Shown piece by piece: positions 15,688-29,064 of a DNA stretch of 42,741 bases. The translations under genes and the position numbers were made by a program. This DNA comes from Candidatus Brocadiia bacterium. GTDB lineage: Bacteria > Planctomycetota > DG-23 > SLPQ01. Location of the stretch: NCBI GenBank assembly GCA_007131925.1, contig SLPQ01000065.1:1-42741 (forward strand). Direction: 5' to 3'. The stretch's first letter is position 1. Every line of letters begins with the position of its first letter. The notes beneath the pieces are model-generated. The model saw nothing but the letters and a program-made list of their open reading frames with translations. It was not told the DNA's origin and did no database searches.

Positions 15688-17808
15688 TCAAACGCCGAAC
15701 GAACGTCGTATGTTCTGGCGCAACCTCATATAGATGACCTCCCATAGGCGCCGATGTCCGTAATCGATCCTGGCCCTGCCGGCCATACCGGGCTTGAGGG
15801 GGCGAGAGGGGTCATCATTAGGCAGCTCTATTGCGATCTCAAAGGTAGCATCGACCGCCACGATGGCGCGTCGGATGTCCGAACGTGTCTGCACACCGCC
15901 GCCGGCCCTGTCGGCAAGGACCGGGCTGGGCAGGAAACGGCGCGGCGCCGCGGATATCTCCGTGACAACGCCTGCAAAGGACTCCCACGGATAGGCCCTG
16001 AGAGTAATGCGGGCCCGCGCATCTTCGGTGACAAACGGAAGGTCCTTTTCAGTGACGGCTACGGTGACCTTCGTCGAGGTGATGTCAGCAAACTCCATGA
16101 GGAAACCGCCCTCGCGGATGTACTTGCCGACGAGGCTGTAATTGGGTGGAGTCAGGATGACGCCGTCGAATGGCGCTCGAATCGTCAGGTCCTCGATACG
16201 CTCGCGGATGTCAGCTATTCTCAGCTCCACTTCGCGCTTTGAGTCGAGGTGGTATTCGCGCGTGGCAAGGTCGCCGGTCGCTGCGGCGTAGTCCGCCTGC
16301 ATCTGGTGGCTCTCGGCAATACCAAGCATCTCTTGCAGCGCGATCTCGAGCCTGGGGTTTTCCAAGCGGGCGATGACAGCGCCGGCGGCGACCGGCCGGC
16401 CCGGCTCAAAGGGCGTCTCTGCAAGTACACCATCGCTGGCAGCATACACCGTGTGCATGCGTGCGGGAGTTATGACGCACGGCGCCGTTACAGAATATCC
16501 CATGTCATGAAAGAAGAGAAAGTAGGCTCCGGCAGCGGCTATCGCAAGTATCACTGCGATACGACCCGGATTTACGCTGGCCGGACGGCCCTTTCGCCTG
16601 GCGATGTACACTGCAAGCCGGATGATGGGCACCAGCAGAAGTCCGTATACGGTGGTGATCATGATCCAGACGCCCAGCGGCGGGATGCGCCACAAGAGCC
16701 CCCTGACGATCCGGTACATAATGTAGATGATCCAGATCGACGAGGCCGTGCCGTAGACGAGTTTGATGGCATTTTCACGCGAGAAGATCGAGGCTCCCGG
16801 CACCTTGAGACCCAGGATGTAGCGCTGCACGAAGCGGCGGACGTACTGCACCGAGCTCGAGCGCAGGTTTGGTATGGCGAGTATGTCGCTGAGGATATAG
16901 TAGCCATCAAACTTCATGAGCGGATTGCCGTTAAAGAGCAGAGACGATATGCCCGCCAGGATCATGATCCGGTATGATATGGCCCTCGCCACACCCGGCG
17001 CACTGGCCCACCAGACCACAGCCGCGACCGAGGCGATGATAAGCTCAGTAATGATGCCGGCAGCGCTTATATAAAACTTGCGAGAATGCTTGTCCTGTAT
17101 CCATGCGTCGCTGATGTTGCAGTAAAGGCACGGCGTGAGCACCAACACGAGTATGCCCACCTCGTGGACTTCCCCGCCGAAGTACTTGCACGTGAAGCCG
17201 TGGCCGAGTTCGTGAAGGGTCTTGACAAGAATGAACATCAGCCAGAAGAAAAGCAGGTTTTCTGCGGTCAGCAGGTCTGCAAAGCCACCAGTGGCTTCAC
17301 TGAGGTTGCCGAAAAATATCACCAGAGCCCATGCAAAAAGGCCCCCGTAGATCGCAAGGGCCGGCCGCGACCACAGGAAACGCAGGTAAGGCATCGCCCT
17401 GGTGAAGATCCGGTCCGGATCGTAAAGCGGTATCTTGATGAAGAGTATCCGCTTGATCTGCTCCCACAGGCTCTTCTGCCTGCGCCGAAGCACCGCCAGG
17501 CGGTATAGTGACTCCGACTGGTTGGGAAGGACATTTTCGAAAAAGTTCGCCGTGCCAAGCTGCTGGATAAATGCCTGCAGCTCCTCATCGTCGATTTCGT
17601 GGCCGAGCTGCTCGAGGCGCGCCTTGACCTCGTCGATGGAGGTCTCCCCGTCCAGCATCCTTGTTATTGCGTACTCGGTGGGCATCAGCCGGAAGTAGCG
17701 CAGGCTGATGGGATCCTTGACAACATAAACAAGCTGGCCCTGCTGGTTTTGCGTCGATATCACCAGGTCGTCGCGGACCTTGAGCTGCTGCCAGTGGCTA
17801 AGCTTCAT
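15688..17808 (-). CDS. PqqD-like domain + M50 site-2-protease-like membrane domain + HlyD-like periplasmic adaptor fusion
   Basis: N-term YVVKDPISLRYFRLMPTEYAITRMLDGETSIDEVKARLEQLG (PqqD-like); HELGHGFTCKYFGGEVHEVGILVLVLTPCLYCNISDAW and NGNPLMKFDGYYILSD (M50); C-term SDGVLAETPFEPGRPVAAGAVIARLENPRLEIAL...IRAPFDGVILTPPNYSLVGKYIREGGFLMEFAD (HlyD). Confidence 0.9.
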   Translation of the reverse strand: MKLSHWQQLKVRDDLVISTQNQQGQLVYVVKDPISLRYFRLMPTEYAITRMLDGETSIDEVKARLEQLGHEIDDEELQAFIQQLGTANFFENVLPNQSESLYRLAVLRRRQKSLWEQIKRILFIKIPLYDPDRIFTRAMPYLRFLWSRPALAIYGGLFAWALVIFFGNLSEATGGFADLLTAENLLFFWLMFILVKTLHELGHGFTCKYFGGEVHEVGILVLVLTPCLYCNISDAWIQDKHSRKFYISAAGIITELIIASVAAVVWWASAPGVARAISYRIMILAGISSLLFNGNPLMKFDGYYILSDILAIPNLRSSSVQYVRRFVQRYILGLKVPGASIFSRENAIKLVYGTASSIWIIYIMYRIVRGLLWRIPPLGVWIMITTVYGLLLVPIIRLAVYIARRKGRPASVNPGRIAVILAIAAAGAYFLFFHDMGYSVTAPCVITPARMHTVYAASDGVLAETPFEPGRPVAAGAVIARLENPRLEIALQEMLGIAESHQMQADYAAATGDLATREYHLDSKREVELRIADIRERIEDLTIRAPFDGVILTPPNYSLVGKYIREGGFLMEFADITSTKVTVAVTEKDLPFVTEDARARITLRAYPWESFAGVVTEISAAPRRFLPSPVLADRAGGGVQTRSDIRRAIVAVDATFEIAIELPNDDPSRPLKPGMAGRARIDYGHRRLWEVIYMRLRQNIRRSFGV

Positions 17809-18644
17809 TCCATGGTCTCGGCCTGCGCGGTCTGTACAGGCAAAACATAAAGCTCGGCATTCATGCCAGGTATCAGTGCACCGTCGGAGTTGTCCACTAC
17901 GGCCCTTATGCCGAAGGAGCGCCCCCCCACATCAGCAACGGGCGCGATGAAGGTCACATCCCCTTCGAAGACGGTTTCGTCGCAAGCCGCAGTCTTTACC
18001 TCCACCCTCATGCCATGCCGCAGCTCCGCCCGGCGCGCGATGTGGGGATGTGCCTCTATATAGACCTTACTTGTGTCAATCAGGTGGAAAAGGCGCTTGT
18101 CGAGAGGATAAGTGGTTTCGCCAAGCTCGATGTACTTTTTTGCGACTATGCCGCTGAAAGGCGCACGCACGGTGTACTCATCGAGCGTAGCCTTTCTGAG
18201 CTCCGCGATGAGCCTCAACTGCTCTAGCTCCTGCCGCTGGGCCTCGACCTGGATGCGGGAGACTTCGAAGTTGTACTCGGCCCTTTCAAGATCCACCTGA
18301 GAGTCGGTGCCTCGCTGGGTAAGGGTGGTGGCGCGCTCAAGGTCTCTTTTGGCCTGCTCGAGGCGCACCTCGGCGGACTTCAGGGCCGCACGATTGCCTG
18401 CCTGCATGACGGCAAGGTCATAATTGGCCTGCTGCACACTCGCGGCGAGCCTGCATAGCACGTCGCCCTCCTCGACCCGCTGGCCCTCCTCGACCAGTAT
18501 CTCCGCGACGATGCCTACTACCTCGGCATTTACGTGAGAAGAGCGCACGGCCTGCACGGTAGCTCTGATGGCAGGCTCGTCGGCGGCCTTCGCACCCTCG
18601 GCCAGCAGCGCCGCCGCAAGAACCGCAAAGAATATCTTTCTCAT
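17805..18644 (-). CDS. HlyD/RND-type periplasmic adaptor protein with signal peptide
   Basis: Start trimmed to MRKIFFAVLAAALLAEGAKAADEPAIRATVQAVRSSHVNAEVVGIVAEILVEEGQRVEEGDVLCRLAASV...YTVRAPFSGIVAKKYIELGETTYPLDKRLFHLID; 4-nt overlap (ATGA) with the downstream gene. Confidence 0.9.
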   Translation of the reverse strand: MRKIFFAVLAAALLAEGAKAADEPAIRATVQAVRSSHVNAEVVGIVAEILVEEGQRVEEGDVLCRLAASVQQANYDLAVMQAGNRAALKSAEVRLEQAKRDLERATTLTQRGTDSQVDLERAEYNFEVSRIQVEAQRQELEQLRLIAELRKATLDEYTVRAPFSGIVAKKYIELGETTYPLDKRLFHLIDTSKVYIEAHPHIARRAELRHGMRVEVKTAACDETVFEGDVTFIAPVADVGGRSFGIRAVVDNSDGALIPGMNAELYVLPVQTAQAETME

Positions 18645-18654
18645 GGTCGACACC

Positions 18655-20535
18655 TCAGAGAAAAAATGCCCGGAACCTTTCGATCGTCGTTCGAAAGAGC
18701 ACGTACAGGACATGTCGTCTTCCGGCCTCAATTGAGGCCGATCCGCTCACGCCGACCCGCAGCGCTTCGGTGGTTTCATCATCCATCGGCAGGCACCTGA
18801 CGACAAAGACGTTCTGGCCGGCCATGGGGCGCGTGGTGGGGCTTATGTGGTCGACCCGCCAGCGATAAACCACGTTGGGGGCGCCGCTGAGCGCAAACTT
18901 GACCGTATTACCCACCTCCACAAAGCGTATATCCCTCTCTTGGACCTCCACCTCGAGTACGAGCTGGGAGATATCCGCGATCTCAGTCAGGGGATCCCCG
19001 GCGTTCATAACCGAGTTGAGCGAGGCATTCAGCTGGTCTCGTGGGGTGACGATGAGTCCGTCAATGGGGCTTTTTATTTCCATGCCGGCGAGCCTCAAAC
19101 GGGCGTTTTCCAGCCTGGCGTCGAGGATGCTCAGCTCAATGTCGGCCAGGCTCGCCGCGGCCGGATTGGTCGCGCGCTTGATCTCACGGTCTGCCTCCTT
19201 GAGGTGCATCTGCAGCTCGATGTCCCTGATGGTGTTCAAGACCTCCCGCTGATCCATCACCGCGATCGTCTCCCCGGCCATGACAAAGTCGCCCTCTGTC
19301 TTGAGAAGCCGCTCTATCTTGCCCTGATAGCGAGGCGCGGCAAATGCGCTCACGCGCGGTGCCAGGCGGCACTCACCCCTTATAGTCAGGTCCCAACTTC
19401 CAAAGGCGAGAAATGCCACCGCCGCTGCAATCAGCGCTACCTTCGCCAGAAATCCGATCCTCTGCGACCCGGTAGCCCGTTTCTTTATGGCGGCCGCCTT
19501 GCGGACAAGGCGGATGCCAGGCATCTTTTCGACCTCGCGCGCCCTCAGAAGGGCACCGGCCGACGACCTGCAAAAGCCCTGCACGAGGGAAAAGTCCTGC
19601 GGCGAATGCCCCTGCTGACTGCGCCGCTCAAAGCCCATGACCGCCAGAAGCGAGTCTTGATGCTCCAGGCGCATAAACAGCACCGACTTGTACTCGCTGG
19701 CCTCAAAGTACAGCCGCAGCCTCTCGCGCAGGTCTTCATCCTCCACCTTTTCGAGATATGCCGCGGTAAAGTGCCAGTCACCCCCTATGCGCGCCACCTC
19801 GGATACGAGCTGTCTTAAGTTTTGCACGGCCGCGCCCTGCTGCGAGACGTCGTCGATGCCGGATATGGCAGCTATGCGAAAGCCCGTGCGCGTGGGCAGC
19901 GCCACAAAGGTCCTGTCGAAAAAGACCATCTCCCGGACGCGGTTGGCCAGTGTAAAGGCCATCCGTTCAAGATCATCTGCGCATGCGAGCTCGCTTTCGA
20001 TCTCGGCCAGTTTGGCAAGCCTGCCGGCGGTCTCCTTGCTGCCTCGCAGCTGCAGGTTGGCGAAATATACCACCAGGTATACGCAAAGGCTCTGAAGCGT
20101 GTGAACGTCGTCCCGCGCGTAGGCGGCGTTTTCCCGCTTTCGCCGCGCGAAAAGCACCACCGCCTGCGTGGTCTCATCAAGCTCGACCGGCACGGCTATA
20201 AGGCAGACATCCTGCAGCTCCTGGACCTCCTCACCCTCCTCCGGATAGTACAATACGGGCTGCTTCTGCTCGATTGTGCGGTAGACGATGCGGGTGATGT
20301 TTTCCTCGCTGAGGCTGCTGAGAGGCCCCTCTTCTGGCAGGTGCGATGCCTTCGGCACGAGCTGGCGGTTCTTTGAATCATAGAGCCACAGACTGCCCCC
20401 CTCCGCGGCCATGCCGACATAGAGCATTCGGAAGAATTCCTTGAAGAACTCATCCGGACCAACGTCGCTACGCGCCAGGCGCGCCAGTCTGGCTGCTATG
20501 GGAAGTGTCTGTCTGCCGGTGGTTTCCTGCGCCAA
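18655..20535 (-). CDS. GAF sensor domain(s) + TM + HlyD-like adaptor fusion
   Basis: N-term FFRMLYVGMAAEGGSLWLYDSKNRQLVPKAS...CLIAVPVELDETTQAVVLFARR (GAF); second GAF-like region FFDRTFVALPTRTGFRIAAISGIDDV; TM IGFLAKVALIAAAVAFLAFGSW; HlyD YQGKIERLLKTEGDFVMAGETIAVMD...IKSPIDGLIVTPRDQLNASLNSVMNAGDPLTEIAD. Confidence 0.85.
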   Translation of the reverse strand: MAQETTGRQTLPIAARLARLARSDVGPDEFFKEFFRMLYVGMAAEGGSLWLYDSKNRQLVPKASHLPEEGPLSSLSEENITRIVYRTIEQKQPVLYYPEEGEEVQELQDVCLIAVPVELDETTQAVVLFARRKRENAAYARDDVHTLQSLCVYLVVYFANLQLRGSKETAGRLAKLAEIESELACADDLERMAFTLANRVREMVFFDRTFVALPTRTGFRIAAISGIDDVSQQGAAVQNLRQLVSEVARIGGDWHFTAAYLEKVEDEDLRERLRLYFEASEYKSVLFMRLEHQDSLLAVMGFERRSQQGHSPQDFSLVQGFCRSSAGALLRAREVEKMPGIRLVRKAAAIKKRATGSQRIGFLAKVALIAAAVAFLAFGSWDLTIRGECRLAPRVSAFAAPRYQGKIERLLKTEGDFVMAGETIAVMDQREVLNTIRDIELQMHLKEADREIKRATNPAAASLADIELSILDARLENARLRLAGMEIKSPIDGLIVTPRDQLNASLNSVMNAGDPLTEIADISQLVLEVEVQERDIRFVEVGNTVKFALSGAPNVVYRWRVDHISPTTRPMAGQNVFVVRCLPMDDETTEALRVGVSGSASIEAGRRHVLYVLFRTTIERFRAFFL

Positions 20536-20557
20536 GATAGCCTCCTGAAGCCCATAA

Positions 20558-21672: not shown

Positions 21673-23604
21673 ATGGACAAGAGAACCGTTGCCGCCGTTG
21701 CCATCACCATTGCCTTTTTCGTGATATGGTCATGGCTGATCTTGCCGTACTTTGGAATAGGCCCAGCCCCTGTCGAGGATGAGACACCGGCTGTCGAGCG
21801 GGATGTCCCAGTCGATGAGCTGCCTGTCGAGCCGACACCTGCGGAGCCGGTTACGCCGCCTGTTGCAGTGCCGCCGGTCGAGCCGGTGCCTGAGAGAGAG
21901 GCAGCTGTCGCGCCGGACGAAGATGTAGATGTGATCAGCCCGGACTACGTCATACCGCCTGAATACAGGCAGGAGAACCTTCAGGATGCCCTGATCACCG
22001 TCGAGACCGACCTGCTCAGCGTTGACTTCACGGCAATGACCGGCTCGGTAAAGAGTGTAACTCTGAAGGAATACGAAGACTTTGAGAGAACCGGCAACCT
22101 CGTGCTGCTCGAGGATTTCACCGAGGGCATATTTCCCACTGAGATCGCCCAGATCGAAGGGCTTGACATCAGTGACCGCCTGTGGCGGCTCGAGCAGGAA
22201 CCTCTCGCCGACGAAGACGGCATAACGCGCGTTTCTTTTGCCACGATCCTTGAGCACGGCATTGCCGTGACCAAAACCTACATCCTGTATCCGGACAGGT
22301 ATGGATTTGCACTCCAGGTGCAAGTGGAAAACCTGCTCGACTCGACACGCCGCATTTCGTACGAAATCCTCGGCCCCACGGGCGTCCCCTCAGAGGACGT
22401 CGCAAAAAATGACGTCCAGGGAGTGCTCGCGACCGTGCCCGCCGAAGCCGGGCTCGAAGGCAAGATGGATGTCAGTATGCGTGCAGCGGCCAGCCTGATC
22501 ACCGAAGGAAGAAACAGGGGCCGACTTGTTACCGACCCCACTATGCGCGTCACCTTCGCCGGCGCTCTCAACAGGTATTTCGCATCCGTACTGCGCCCCT
22601 CCATCGACGTGCCTGTCGATAGGGCATGGAGCGACGCCTATTACGACAGCGCCCTGGGCATAACCGAGCTTGAGGGGCTCACCGCCGAAGATGCACGTCA
22701 CAGATACACTCCTGAGCAGCGGGGCAATATCGCAAGCTATTTTTACACCGCCGGCTCAGGCTTCGTGGTAAACACAGGTGAGCTTGCACCTTTCGGCAGC
22801 GCGGGGTCGGCTGTTGTGCACGACTACCTGATGTACAGCGGCCCGAAGGAGAGCCAGGCGCTGGCGGGTTTTGACACGGAGGCATTCAGGACGGGCTTTC
22901 CGGTGCTCCTGGACTACGGGATGCTCGAGCCGCTCGTCAAACTCATCCTGATACTCTTGCGCGCCTTCTATATCGCTATCCCCAACTGGGGTATTGCGAT
23001 TATTATCCTGACGCTCGTGATGCGCGGAGCCATGCACCCGCTGATGCGCAAGAGCCAGGTTTCCATGGCCAAGATGCAAAAGCTGCAACCGCAGATCAAG
23101 AAGCTCCAGGAAAAATACAAGAAGGACAAGCAGCGCCTTGGCCAGGAACAGATGAAGCTTATGAAGGAGTCAGGCGCAAACCCGCTTGGCGGCTGCCTGC
23201 CCATGCTTATACAGCTGCCTATCTTCTTCGCGCTTTACCGCTCGCTGATGCTGTCGATAGAGCTCAGACATGCCCCTTTCATCCTATGGATCAACGACCT
23301 AGCTCAGCCCGACAGACTGATGGAGCTGCCGTTTGTCCTGCCGCTTCTGGGAACCCCCTGGCTGAACCTGCTGCCGATAGCCATGGTAAGCTCCATGATA
23401 GTCCAGCAGCGCATGATGCCGAAGGGAGCTACGCCTGAGGCAGCCCAGCAGCAGCGGCTGATGGCATTTTTCATGCCTGTCTTCATAGGTTTCATACTGT
23501 ACAATCTCGCTGCCGGGCTCAACCTTTACATCTTTACCAGCACCGTGTTCGGCATTGCCGAGCAGTGGTGGGTGAAACGACACCTTGCCGCGCAGGAAGG
23601 CTGA
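21673..23604 (+). CDS. yidC: Membrane protein insertase YidC
   Basis: N-term TM AITIAFFVIWSWLILPYFGI plus Pro/Glu-rich linker; C-term core IPNWGIAIIILTLVMRGAMHPLMRKSQVSMAKMQKLQPQIKKLQEKYKKDKQRLGQEQMKLMKESGANPLGGCLPMLIQLPIFFALYRSL. Confidence 0.97.
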   Translation: MDKRTVAAVAITIAFFVIWSWLILPYFGIGPAPVEDETPAVERDVPVDELPVEPTPAEPVTPPVAVPPVEPVPEREAAVAPDEDVDVISPDYVIPPEYRQENLQDALITVETDLLSVDFTAMTGSVKSVTLKEYEDFERTGNLVLLEDFTEGIFPTEIAQIEGLDISDRLWRLEQEPLADEDGITRVSFATILEHGIAVTKTYILYPDRYGFALQVQVENLLDSTRRISYEILGPTGVPSEDVAKNDVQGVLATVPAEAGLEGKMDVSMRAAASLITEGRNRGRLVTDPTMRVTFAGALNRYFASVLRPSIDVPVDRAWSDAYYDSALGITELEGLTAEDARHRYTPEQRGNIASYFYTAGSGFVVNTGELAPFGSAGSAVVHDYLMYSGPKESQALAGFDTEAFRTGFPVLLDYGMLEPLVKLILILLRAFYIAIPNWGIAIIILTLVMRGAMHPLMRKSQVSMAKMQKLQPQIKKLQEKYKKDKQRLGQEQMKLMKESGANPLGGCLPMLIQLPIFFALYRSLMLSIELRHAPFILWINDLAQPDRLMELPFVLPLLGTPWLNLLPIAMVSSMIVQQRMMPKGATPEAAQQQRLMAFFMPVFIGFILYNLAAGLNLYIFTSTVFGIAEQWWVKRHLAAQEG

Positions 23605-27549: not shown

Positions 27550-27669
27550 CCGACCTGCGCCAACGGAGCTCAAACGGCACTGGAGGATGGCCCACGCGAT
27601 ACCACAGTCCATCCGAAAGGCCGTTTGCTGCCCCTTCAGAAATCGCGGCCTGCTGACGGAGCTCCAGCC

Positions 27670-29064
27670 ATGAGTACTGACGATAACACTATAGTAGCCG
27701 TGGCCACGCCGCGCGGCAGAGCGGCACTGGGTATAGTGCGTCTGTCTGGCGGCGAGGCGTTGCGCATTGTCTCGGAGTGTCTTGACCGGCCGCTCAAAGC
27801 AGGGAGCTTCAGGAGGGTCGAGTCGCGGCTCACTCTGTCGCGAACTGCTGGGTTTCCAGTCGTTCTTTACGTGATGCTGGCAGGGCGCTCCTACACTCGT
27901 GAGGACGTAGTCGAGATACACGCGCCAGGTTCGCCGCCTCTTCTTGCAGCCATACTCTCAGAGATGCGCACGCGCGGCGCTCGCCTGGCTGAGCCGGGGG
28001 AGTTTACCCGCAGGGCCTTTCTTAACGGCCGCATAGACCTGGCACAGGCAGAGGCGGTCATGGCCATTGTGCGCGCGGGCAGCGAGACGGAGGAGCGGCT
28101 TGCCCTCTCGGCGCTCAAGGGCGACCTCTCAAGACGAGTGGGGGCGGTGCGCGGCGAGCTCGTACATTTGATGGCGGATATCGAGGCAGGGCTCGACTTT
28201 GTGGAAGATGAGGATATCTTCGTGCCGCCTGAGCGGCAGCGCCGCAGCATCGAAGGCGCCGCCGCCGCACTGGCGCAGGTGCTGTCAACAAGTGCGGTCA
28301 GGCGCCTGTACCGCGAAGAAGCCGCAGCCGTCCTGTACGGGCCGGCAAACGCAGGTAAGTCCAGCATCTTTAACCTGCTGGCAGGCTCCCCCTCGGCGAT
28401 AGTGGAGGATATGCCCGGCACAACGCGCGACTTTCTCGAAGCAGCAGTCGATCTTGAGGGGGTGCGGTTTATCCTGGTGGACACCGCAGGCATAAGGCCG
28501 CCGGCGGAGCTTGTCGAGCAGATCGCCCTCGAGCAAAGCGAAAGGGCGGCCCGCGACGCCCAGGTCGTGGCCTTCGTGGTTGACGCTTCTCGTGTGCCGG
28601 ACGATACAGCACGGCGGCTTTACGAGAGTGCGAGAACTTTGCCGCACCTTGCGATCCTCAATAAGTGCGACCTCGCCCAGCCACGAGACATCGCGGCATG
28701 GAGGCGCTTCTTCTCAAAGGGCGGTCCCGCCCAAGCCTCTACACGCCACGGGGTGCTGGAGCTCTCGGCGGCTACCGGAAGGGGAATAGACGACCTGGAA
28801 GCGGCCCTCGCGGAAATGGTGCTCGGCGGGTTTGTCAACCTTTCCGGCAGCAGGTATCTCATTGATGCGAGACAGCAGACATGCCTTGAGCATGCGCTGG
28901 CGGCGCTTGAAAGGGCCGGACGCATGGTTGAAACCGCCGCAGGCGACGAGCTTACCGCCCTGGAGATGAGAGATGCCATCGAGGCGCTCGGCAGGGTGAC
29001 AGGCGAGGATTACTTCTCTGATCTTCTCGACGAGGTCTTCAGTCGCTTCTGCGTAGGAAAGTGA
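27670..29064 (+). CDS. mnmE: tRNA uridine-5-carboxymethylaminomethyl(34) synthesis GTPase MnmE
   Basis: MSTDDNTIVAVATPRGRAALGIVRLSGGEAL...GPANAGKSSIFNLLAG...GTTRDFLEAAVDLEGVRFILVDTAGIR...NKCDL; C-term DYFSDLLDEVFSRFCVGK. Confidence 0.97.
   Translation: MSTDDNTIVAVATPRGRAALGIVRLSGGEALRIVSECLDRPLKAGSFRRVESRLTLSRTAGFPVVLYVMLAGRSYTREDVVEIHAPGSPPLLAAILSEMRTRGARLAEPGEFTRRAFLNGRIDLAQAEAVMAIVRAGSETEERLALSALKGDLSRRVGAVRGELVHLMADIEAGLDFVEDEDIFVPPERQRRSIEGAAAALAQVLSTSAVRRLYREEAAAVLYGPANAGKSSIFNLLAGSPSAIVEDMPGTTRDFLEAAVDLEGVRFILVDTAGIRPPAELVEQIALEQSERAARDAQVVAFVVDASRVPDDTARRLYESARTLPHLAILNKCDLAQPRDIAAWRRFFSKGGPAQASTRHGVLELSAATGRGIDDLEAALAEMVLGGFVNLSGSRYLIDARQQTCLEHALAALERAGRMVETAAGDELTALEMRDAIEALGRVTGEDYFSDLLDEVFSRFCVGK

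Follow-up and report, generated by a model that had tools for sequence, protein, structure and literature searches.

A GAF, HlyD and PqqD-M50-HlyD gene trio as a candidate processing and export module for large LE-x-R leader proteins

What could three HlyD-type adaptor proteins serve when one of them is fused to an intramembrane protease domain and no pump is encoded beside them? This question is raised by a trio of genes in a 42,741-nucleotide stretch of DNA (the window) from a Candidatus Brocadiia bacterium of the Planctomycetota (GCA_007131925.1, contig SLPQ01000065.1), encoding a GAF-HlyD protein (gene 1), a HlyD protein (gene 2) and a PqqD-like/M50/HlyD protein (gene 3). The new observation is that relatives of this module are tied to giant extracellular repeat proteins with an L-E-x-R (LE-x-R) leader by co-occurrence and often by adjacency. 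On this basis we tentatively suggest that the trio is a GAF-regulated, leader-recognising intramembrane protease/exporter for large extracellular LE-x-R proteins. With similar reserve, the leader (LEPR-XLL or the planctomycete extracellular motif) may be read as the signal by which the PqqD-M50-HlyD machine recognises and cleaves its substrates.

Association of the module with LE-x-R leader proteins

The association was measured in 274 Gammaproteobacteria genomes, which were searched with LEPR-XLL, an independently curated NCBIfam model, and with the M50 region of a gammaproteobacterial relative. LEPR-XLL was matched in 23/274 genomes and the M50 protein in 38/274, with both present in 19 (table 19/4/19/232; odds ratio 58, Fisher p = 2.6e-15, kinship ignored). 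The two were found on one contig in nine genomes (G059, G116, G144, G169, G170, G253, G269, G287 and G303), including contigs of 1.9 to 4.4 Mb; in eight of the nine, a giant open reading frame (ORF) of up to ~14,000 amino acids was located no more than two genes from the module, the ninth being ~13 kb away. In G059, the sole LEPR-XLL match of the genome lies directly downstream of the module. Related leaders also stand beside the module in several M50-positive genomes with no LEPR-XLL match (G175, MRKLEQRVVLDAAA; G292, MRKLEERVVLDAAV; G225, SALEPRMMFDGAV; G321, RLESQERRILFSADA). Among Planctomycetota, DUF4347 proteins occurred in 7/16 genomes with the M50 protein against 1/43 without it (p = 2e-4, kinship ignored). 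PF07595 (Planc_extracel), tried as a probe in this phylum, was set aside as uninformative because no genome scored above its cut-off and it gave signal in control genomes too.

Large proteins encoded next to the module are in many cases extracellular by appearance; in Planctomycetota they bear RTX repeats (L052), cadherin repeats (L056, L122), DUF4347 (L058, L060, L061) or dockerin domains. Many such neighbours carry an L-E-x-R motif 3-80 residues from their start, as in LEALEPRILLSADP, LEERVLFDAAP, LEPRIAPAS and LEDRRLLAG. The leader pattern, which was written after part of the sequences had been seen, was present at the N-terminus of 14/465 and 6/101 large non-module ORFs in two locus sets, compared with 0/1459 and 0/500 internal windows, and the reversed pattern was never found; these controls guard against composition only, and they place the motif at the N-terminus but do not speak for its enrichment near the module. 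A standard Sec signal on these proteins is unlikely, because the leaders are mostly without a preceding hydrophobic stretch. Searches of the open-access literature, to which all literature statements here refer, returned neither a relevant LEPR-XLL paper nor a route by which giant surface proteins with an LE-x-R leader are exported.

Some loci hold several such proteins. Three tandem DUF4347 proteins of ~690 amino acids with near-identical leaders (LRVLEERVLFDAAP) occupy L058:9674-16698, ~5 kb from an M50 gene, and several LEPR-XLL frames of 8,000 to 14,000 amino acids each are located beside or near a SecA2-type module in G303, G116 and G170. A further large protein downstream of a module (L139:13612-17673) combines a cyclophilin-type isomerase with SdrD-B and PKD-like domains.

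For the window's own genome, the substrate link is inferred from relatives, with one consistent finding. About a quarter of this genome was sampled, giving a single leader match (LEELEERIAP) in a repeat protein:

L325:10379-12460 (contig C243), minus strand: 693-amino-acid repeat protein, candidate substrate by its leader match, with leader RLEELEERIAPTMLV and beginning MTTTEQQTAPLPRKGEPLRLEELEERIAPTMLV

Gene structure, conservation and proposed mechanism

The trio consists of three minus-strand ORFs in the window (20535-18655, 18644-17805 and 17808-15688), with the following features, all on the minus strand:

18655..20535: gene 1, GAF-GAF-transmembrane-HlyD protein, 626 amino acids, TTG start (Pfam: GAF_3 2e-13, GAF 7e-7, HlyD_D23 5e-16, HlyD_3)
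19402..19458: transmembrane helix of gene 1, residues 360-378, separating the cytosolic GAF domains from the periplasmic HlyD part (hydropathy; single strong helix)
20541..20546: ribosome-binding site AGGAGG of gene 1 (sequence)
17805..18644: gene 2, HlyD-family periplasmic adaptor, 279 amino acids, ATG start, signal-like N-terminus (Pfam: HlyD_D23 7e-25)
15688..17808: gene 3, PqqD-like/M50/HlyD protein, 706 amino acids (Pfam: HlyD_D23 4e-13, HlyD_3, Peptidase_M50; AlphaFold2 model)
17539..17781: PqqD-like N-terminal domain of gene 3, resembling a RiPP (ribosomally synthesised and post-translationally modified peptide) recognition element (RRE) (weak Pfam match, 14.4 bits, cut-off 23.4; within the daptide-protease model alignment)
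17200..17214: HELGH zinc/catalytic motif of gene 3 (sequence; conservation in relatives)
16903..16926: NPLMKFDG, NPxxD-type second zinc-site motif of gene 3 (sequence; conservation in relatives)

The ORF coordinates bear out the original prediction of three consecutive genes, with 10 nucleotides between the gene 1 stop and the gene 2 ATG and a 4-nucleotide overlap of genes 2 and 3 (ATGA, 17808-17805); the single promoter it had placed before them was not recovered, a promoter scan having found no minus-strand sigma-70-like site upstream of gene 1. Its domain assignments stood for GAF, HlyD and both protease motifs, and for M50 at a Peptidase_M50 score of 26.1 bits, just under the gathering score of 27.2, whereas the PqqD-like end is weakly matched. 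Gene 2 also matches RND_mfp above cut-off (7e-40), and its ~97-amino-acid hairpin is the longest among the three adaptors; gene 3 has at least six hydrophobic segments by hydropathy. An R-x3-L-x6-S TolC-docking tip motif in gene 2 (RATTLTQRGTDS) was not used as evidence, because across the family it is no commoner than chance (11/81 against 7.4 expected).

The AlphaFold2 model of gene 3 (mean pLDDT 84, pTM 0.63) comprises an N-terminal domain of three strands and three helices (beta-beta-beta-alpha-alpha-alpha), a membrane helix bundle enclosing HELGH and NPLMKFDG, and a C-terminal adaptor whose best Protein Data Bank (PDB) matches are MacA, MexA and AcrA. PqqD was matched by Pfam in 4/20 gene 3 relatives (best 2.6e-6), and the modelled fold is compatible with an RRE-like domain.

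No ABC gene was found near the trio among the window genes read. The absence of a nearby pump holds for the window, but about five TolC-family (OEP) genes are present elsewhere in its genome (assembly of 3.03 Mb, 257 contigs, 91% complete), none of them linked in the window. Beyond the start of the trio, on the opposite strand, the window encodes proteins that by eye resemble the YidC insertase (21673-23604) and the MnmE GTPase (27625-29064).

The M50 protein, counted as M50 region plus HlyD, is present in 16/59 sampled genomes of the window's phylum, a count that leaves out matches to the HlyD part alone, which occur in more genomes; at least 561 loci were found in the species-representative genome collection. 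All three proteins recur together in Planctomycetota, Verrucomicrobiota, Kiritimatiellae and Proteobacteria, so that their arrangement is not due to chance. Within 8 kb of the M50 gene in 103 loci, a GAF-HlyD gene was found in 70, a HlyD gene in 76, a secondary SecA (SecA2) in 16 and a TolC-family gene in eight, and the order GAF-HlyD, HlyD, M50 is contiguous in 38; the counts are lower bounds, because M50 similarity was the criterion for picking these loci and some stand at the end of a contig. Domain-bearing ORFs were given priority in gene calling, since shadow ORFs mask M50 genes in GC-rich contigs, and a recurrent neighbour cluster of ~800 amino acids (L065|9920 and others) was rejected as a shadow frame. 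An ABC ATPase family was detected in only eight of ~105 relatives' loci, and this survey upholds the view that the envelope module is conserved and lacks a linked canonical ABC, RND or MFS pump.

HExxH is intact in 102/103 loci, the exception being truncated by a contig end and starting past the motif, and in 34/34 gammaproteobacterial loci; the NPxxD-type motif is found in 103/103 and 28/34, respectively. As no untruncated relative checked has lost HExxH, the M50 part probably acts as a protease. Of the original prediction, the intact protease site, a weakly matched PqqD-like domain of the leader-binding type and a plausible role in processing or export are upheld.

In 23 loci, 24 same-strand genes close to the module (e.g. 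L097:12481-12876) encode a small DUF3467 (PF11950) protein. They either directly follow M50 or precede GAF-HlyD, occur both with and without SecA2, and may specify a fourth component that has been overlooked. Neither a solved relative nor a paper on the function of this protein was found; a SecB-like chaperone role was considered and dropped, its AlphaFold model (pLDDT 75) having no significant PDB match. The window's genome has one DUF3467 gene away from the trio (G000:C41:30252-30503; L154/L155).

In the mechanism that we propose, the substrates would be large extracellular proteins with a leader of the L-E-x-[ILMVF]-E-x-R type (LEPR-XLL, LEDR/LEER, LExRIAP) in place of a Sec signal peptide. 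The PqqD-like domain of gene 3 would bind the leader in the cytosol, and the M50 domain, with its conserved active site, would cut at or behind it in the membrane. The three HlyD parts, whose adaptor fold is recognisable, could form a mixed adaptor ring leading to a TolC-family channel encoded elsewhere, while the GAF domains may gate or localise the complex on binding a ligand. A linked secondary SecA, where present, would supply force; in the window's genome, the housekeeping SecA/SecYEG might do so, or only the processing step might be carried out there.

The secondary-SecA locus and rival explanations

The same three proteins were described from comparative genomics beside a "secondary SecA" (Kamneva, Poudel & Ward, PLoS One 2015; PMC4452313), with no ABC transporter, an occasional OEP gene and GAF domains held to be likely regulatory; the M50 protein was suggested as a pore in place of a pump. 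It was the only relevant paper retrieved on GAF, HlyD, M50 or PqqD with planctomycetes. The set is therefore not undescribed at the level of comparative genomics, and the central idea of the original prediction, an M50 domain replacing the pump, is not new because that study had already proposed it. Both loci unite GAF-HlyD, Peptidase_M50-HlyD and separate HlyD proteins without an ABC transporter. The 2015 locus sometimes has a linked OEP gene and includes a secondary SecA_DEAD protein lacking the SW domain, whereas the window trio has no linked OEP gene and no such SecA nearby or in the assembly at its 91% completeness.

The one SecA_DEAD match in the window's genome is a 937-amino-acid frame of canonical size on another contig. 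Two other genomes, G027 (complete) and G008, each have the M50 module but a single SecA, which rules out a secondary SecA as obligatory partner. A tree of 85 M50 domains places the window protein with its two family members and the G055 copy (Shimodaira-Hasegawa-like approximate likelihood ratio test support 99-100), all members of this clade being without linked SecA2, and the SecA2 label changes 11 times on the tree compared with 26 in shuffles. On these grounds the trio is kept apart from the SecA2 locus as a distinct SecA2-independent variant of a widespread envelope machine. The predicted self-containment of the trio is doubtful, given that a secondary SecA, TolC or DUF3467 gene is linked to the module in many relatives and that TolC genes occur elsewhere in the window's genome.

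Could the M50 protein take the place of an ABC pump as inner-membrane channel in a type-I-like exporter, with its protease activity incidental (Kamneva et al., 2015, and the original prediction)? The lack of a linked ABC, RND or MFS gene, the fusion of M50 and HlyD in a single protein, and the secondary SecA (an ATPase) and TolC genes linked in some loci would suit such a channel; a mere pore, however, needs neither HExxH, which is without true exception, nor the second motif, which nearly is, and no energy source is linked to the trio in the window's genome. We consider this channel unlikely.

Proteases of regulated intramembrane proteolysis are found in the M50 family, and a signalling role, with GAF as ligand sensor, M50 as the protease of a membrane-bound regulator and HlyD as no more than a scaffold or periplasmic sensor, would also account for the GAF domains and for an operon that in the window is single-copy with no linked substrates. 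Such a role is improbable to a similar degree: the three adaptor modules and the SecA2, TolC and giant surface-protein genes linked in relatives point instead to secretion, and none of the neighbour families recurring right next to the module is a regulator family. Maturation or export of small ribosomal peptides, RiPP-like, is suggested by the PqqD-like domain and by the daptide protease as nearest named family, but is very unlikely, as the conserved neighbours examined include no RiPP modification enzymes and are instead giant proteins, DUF3467, SecA and TolC, and the daptide score of 180 bits is far below the cut-off of 300.

Processing and export of LE-x-R proteins is the reading that we retain, and large extracellular proteins are more likely substrates than the peptides originally predicted, given the gammaproteobacterial co-occurrence and the leader pattern. 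Several points weigh against it. The gammaproteobacterial statistic ignores kinship, and 19 M50-positive genomes have no LEPR-XLL match, though some of them carry a related leader. The PqqD assignment is weak by sequence, and the RLS TolC-docking motif of gene 2 lacks conservation across the family. The window's M50 belongs to a deep clade of its own; no large leader-bearing gene adjoins the trio in the window or in the two family members (on short contigs), and neither DUF4347 nor PF07595, the latter powerless in Planctomycetota, has a match in the window's genome.

Since its description in 2015 the locus has lacked both a substrate and a function; the LE-x-R tie now provides a concrete candidate substrate, a leader that can be mutated and a protease that can be inactivated. 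If the proposal is right, a RiPP-style leader-binding intramembrane protease would front the export of giant extracellular proteins without a Sec signal, along a route spanning Planctomycetota, Verrucomicrobiota and Proteobacteria, with and without SecA2; such use of RiPP-type leader recognition for very large extracellular proteins would represent a new type of secretion front end.

Comparison with known systems

Among named families, gene 3 comes closest to the daptide intramembrane metalloprotease (NF041824, MpaP; 7e-53, residues 28-393), matched at 180 bits, under the curated cut-off of 300 bits. The two agree in the order of an N-terminal RRE-like domain, in gene 3 a putative one, followed by M50; gene 3 differs in its additional C-terminal HlyD adaptor, its secretion-type operon and the lack of daptide enzymes or precursors beside it. 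MpaP is an RRE-dependent M50 protease said to remove the daptide leader, whose motif is ELExMEAP, with Leu(-7) and Met(-4) needed for processing via the MpaB RRE (PMC10036551). LExLEPR shares with ELExMEAP the spacing of two large hydrophobic residues, three apart, among acidic residues, a likeness that is a resemblance between sequences and not a test.

The epipeptide maturation metalloprotease YydH/LiaK (NF058609) matches gene 3 weakly and in the M50 core only (1.5e-10), with no epipeptide genes at the window trio. As in M50/site-2 proteases generally, gene 3 places HExxH in a membrane helix and has an NPxxD-type motif. The adaptor fold common to all three proteins is that of the HlyD/EmrA/MacA membrane-fusion proteins of type I secretion and tripartite pumps; whereas those systems have an ABC, MFS or RND partner, the trio has none, and its adaptors are fused to GAF-transmembrane or M50 parts.

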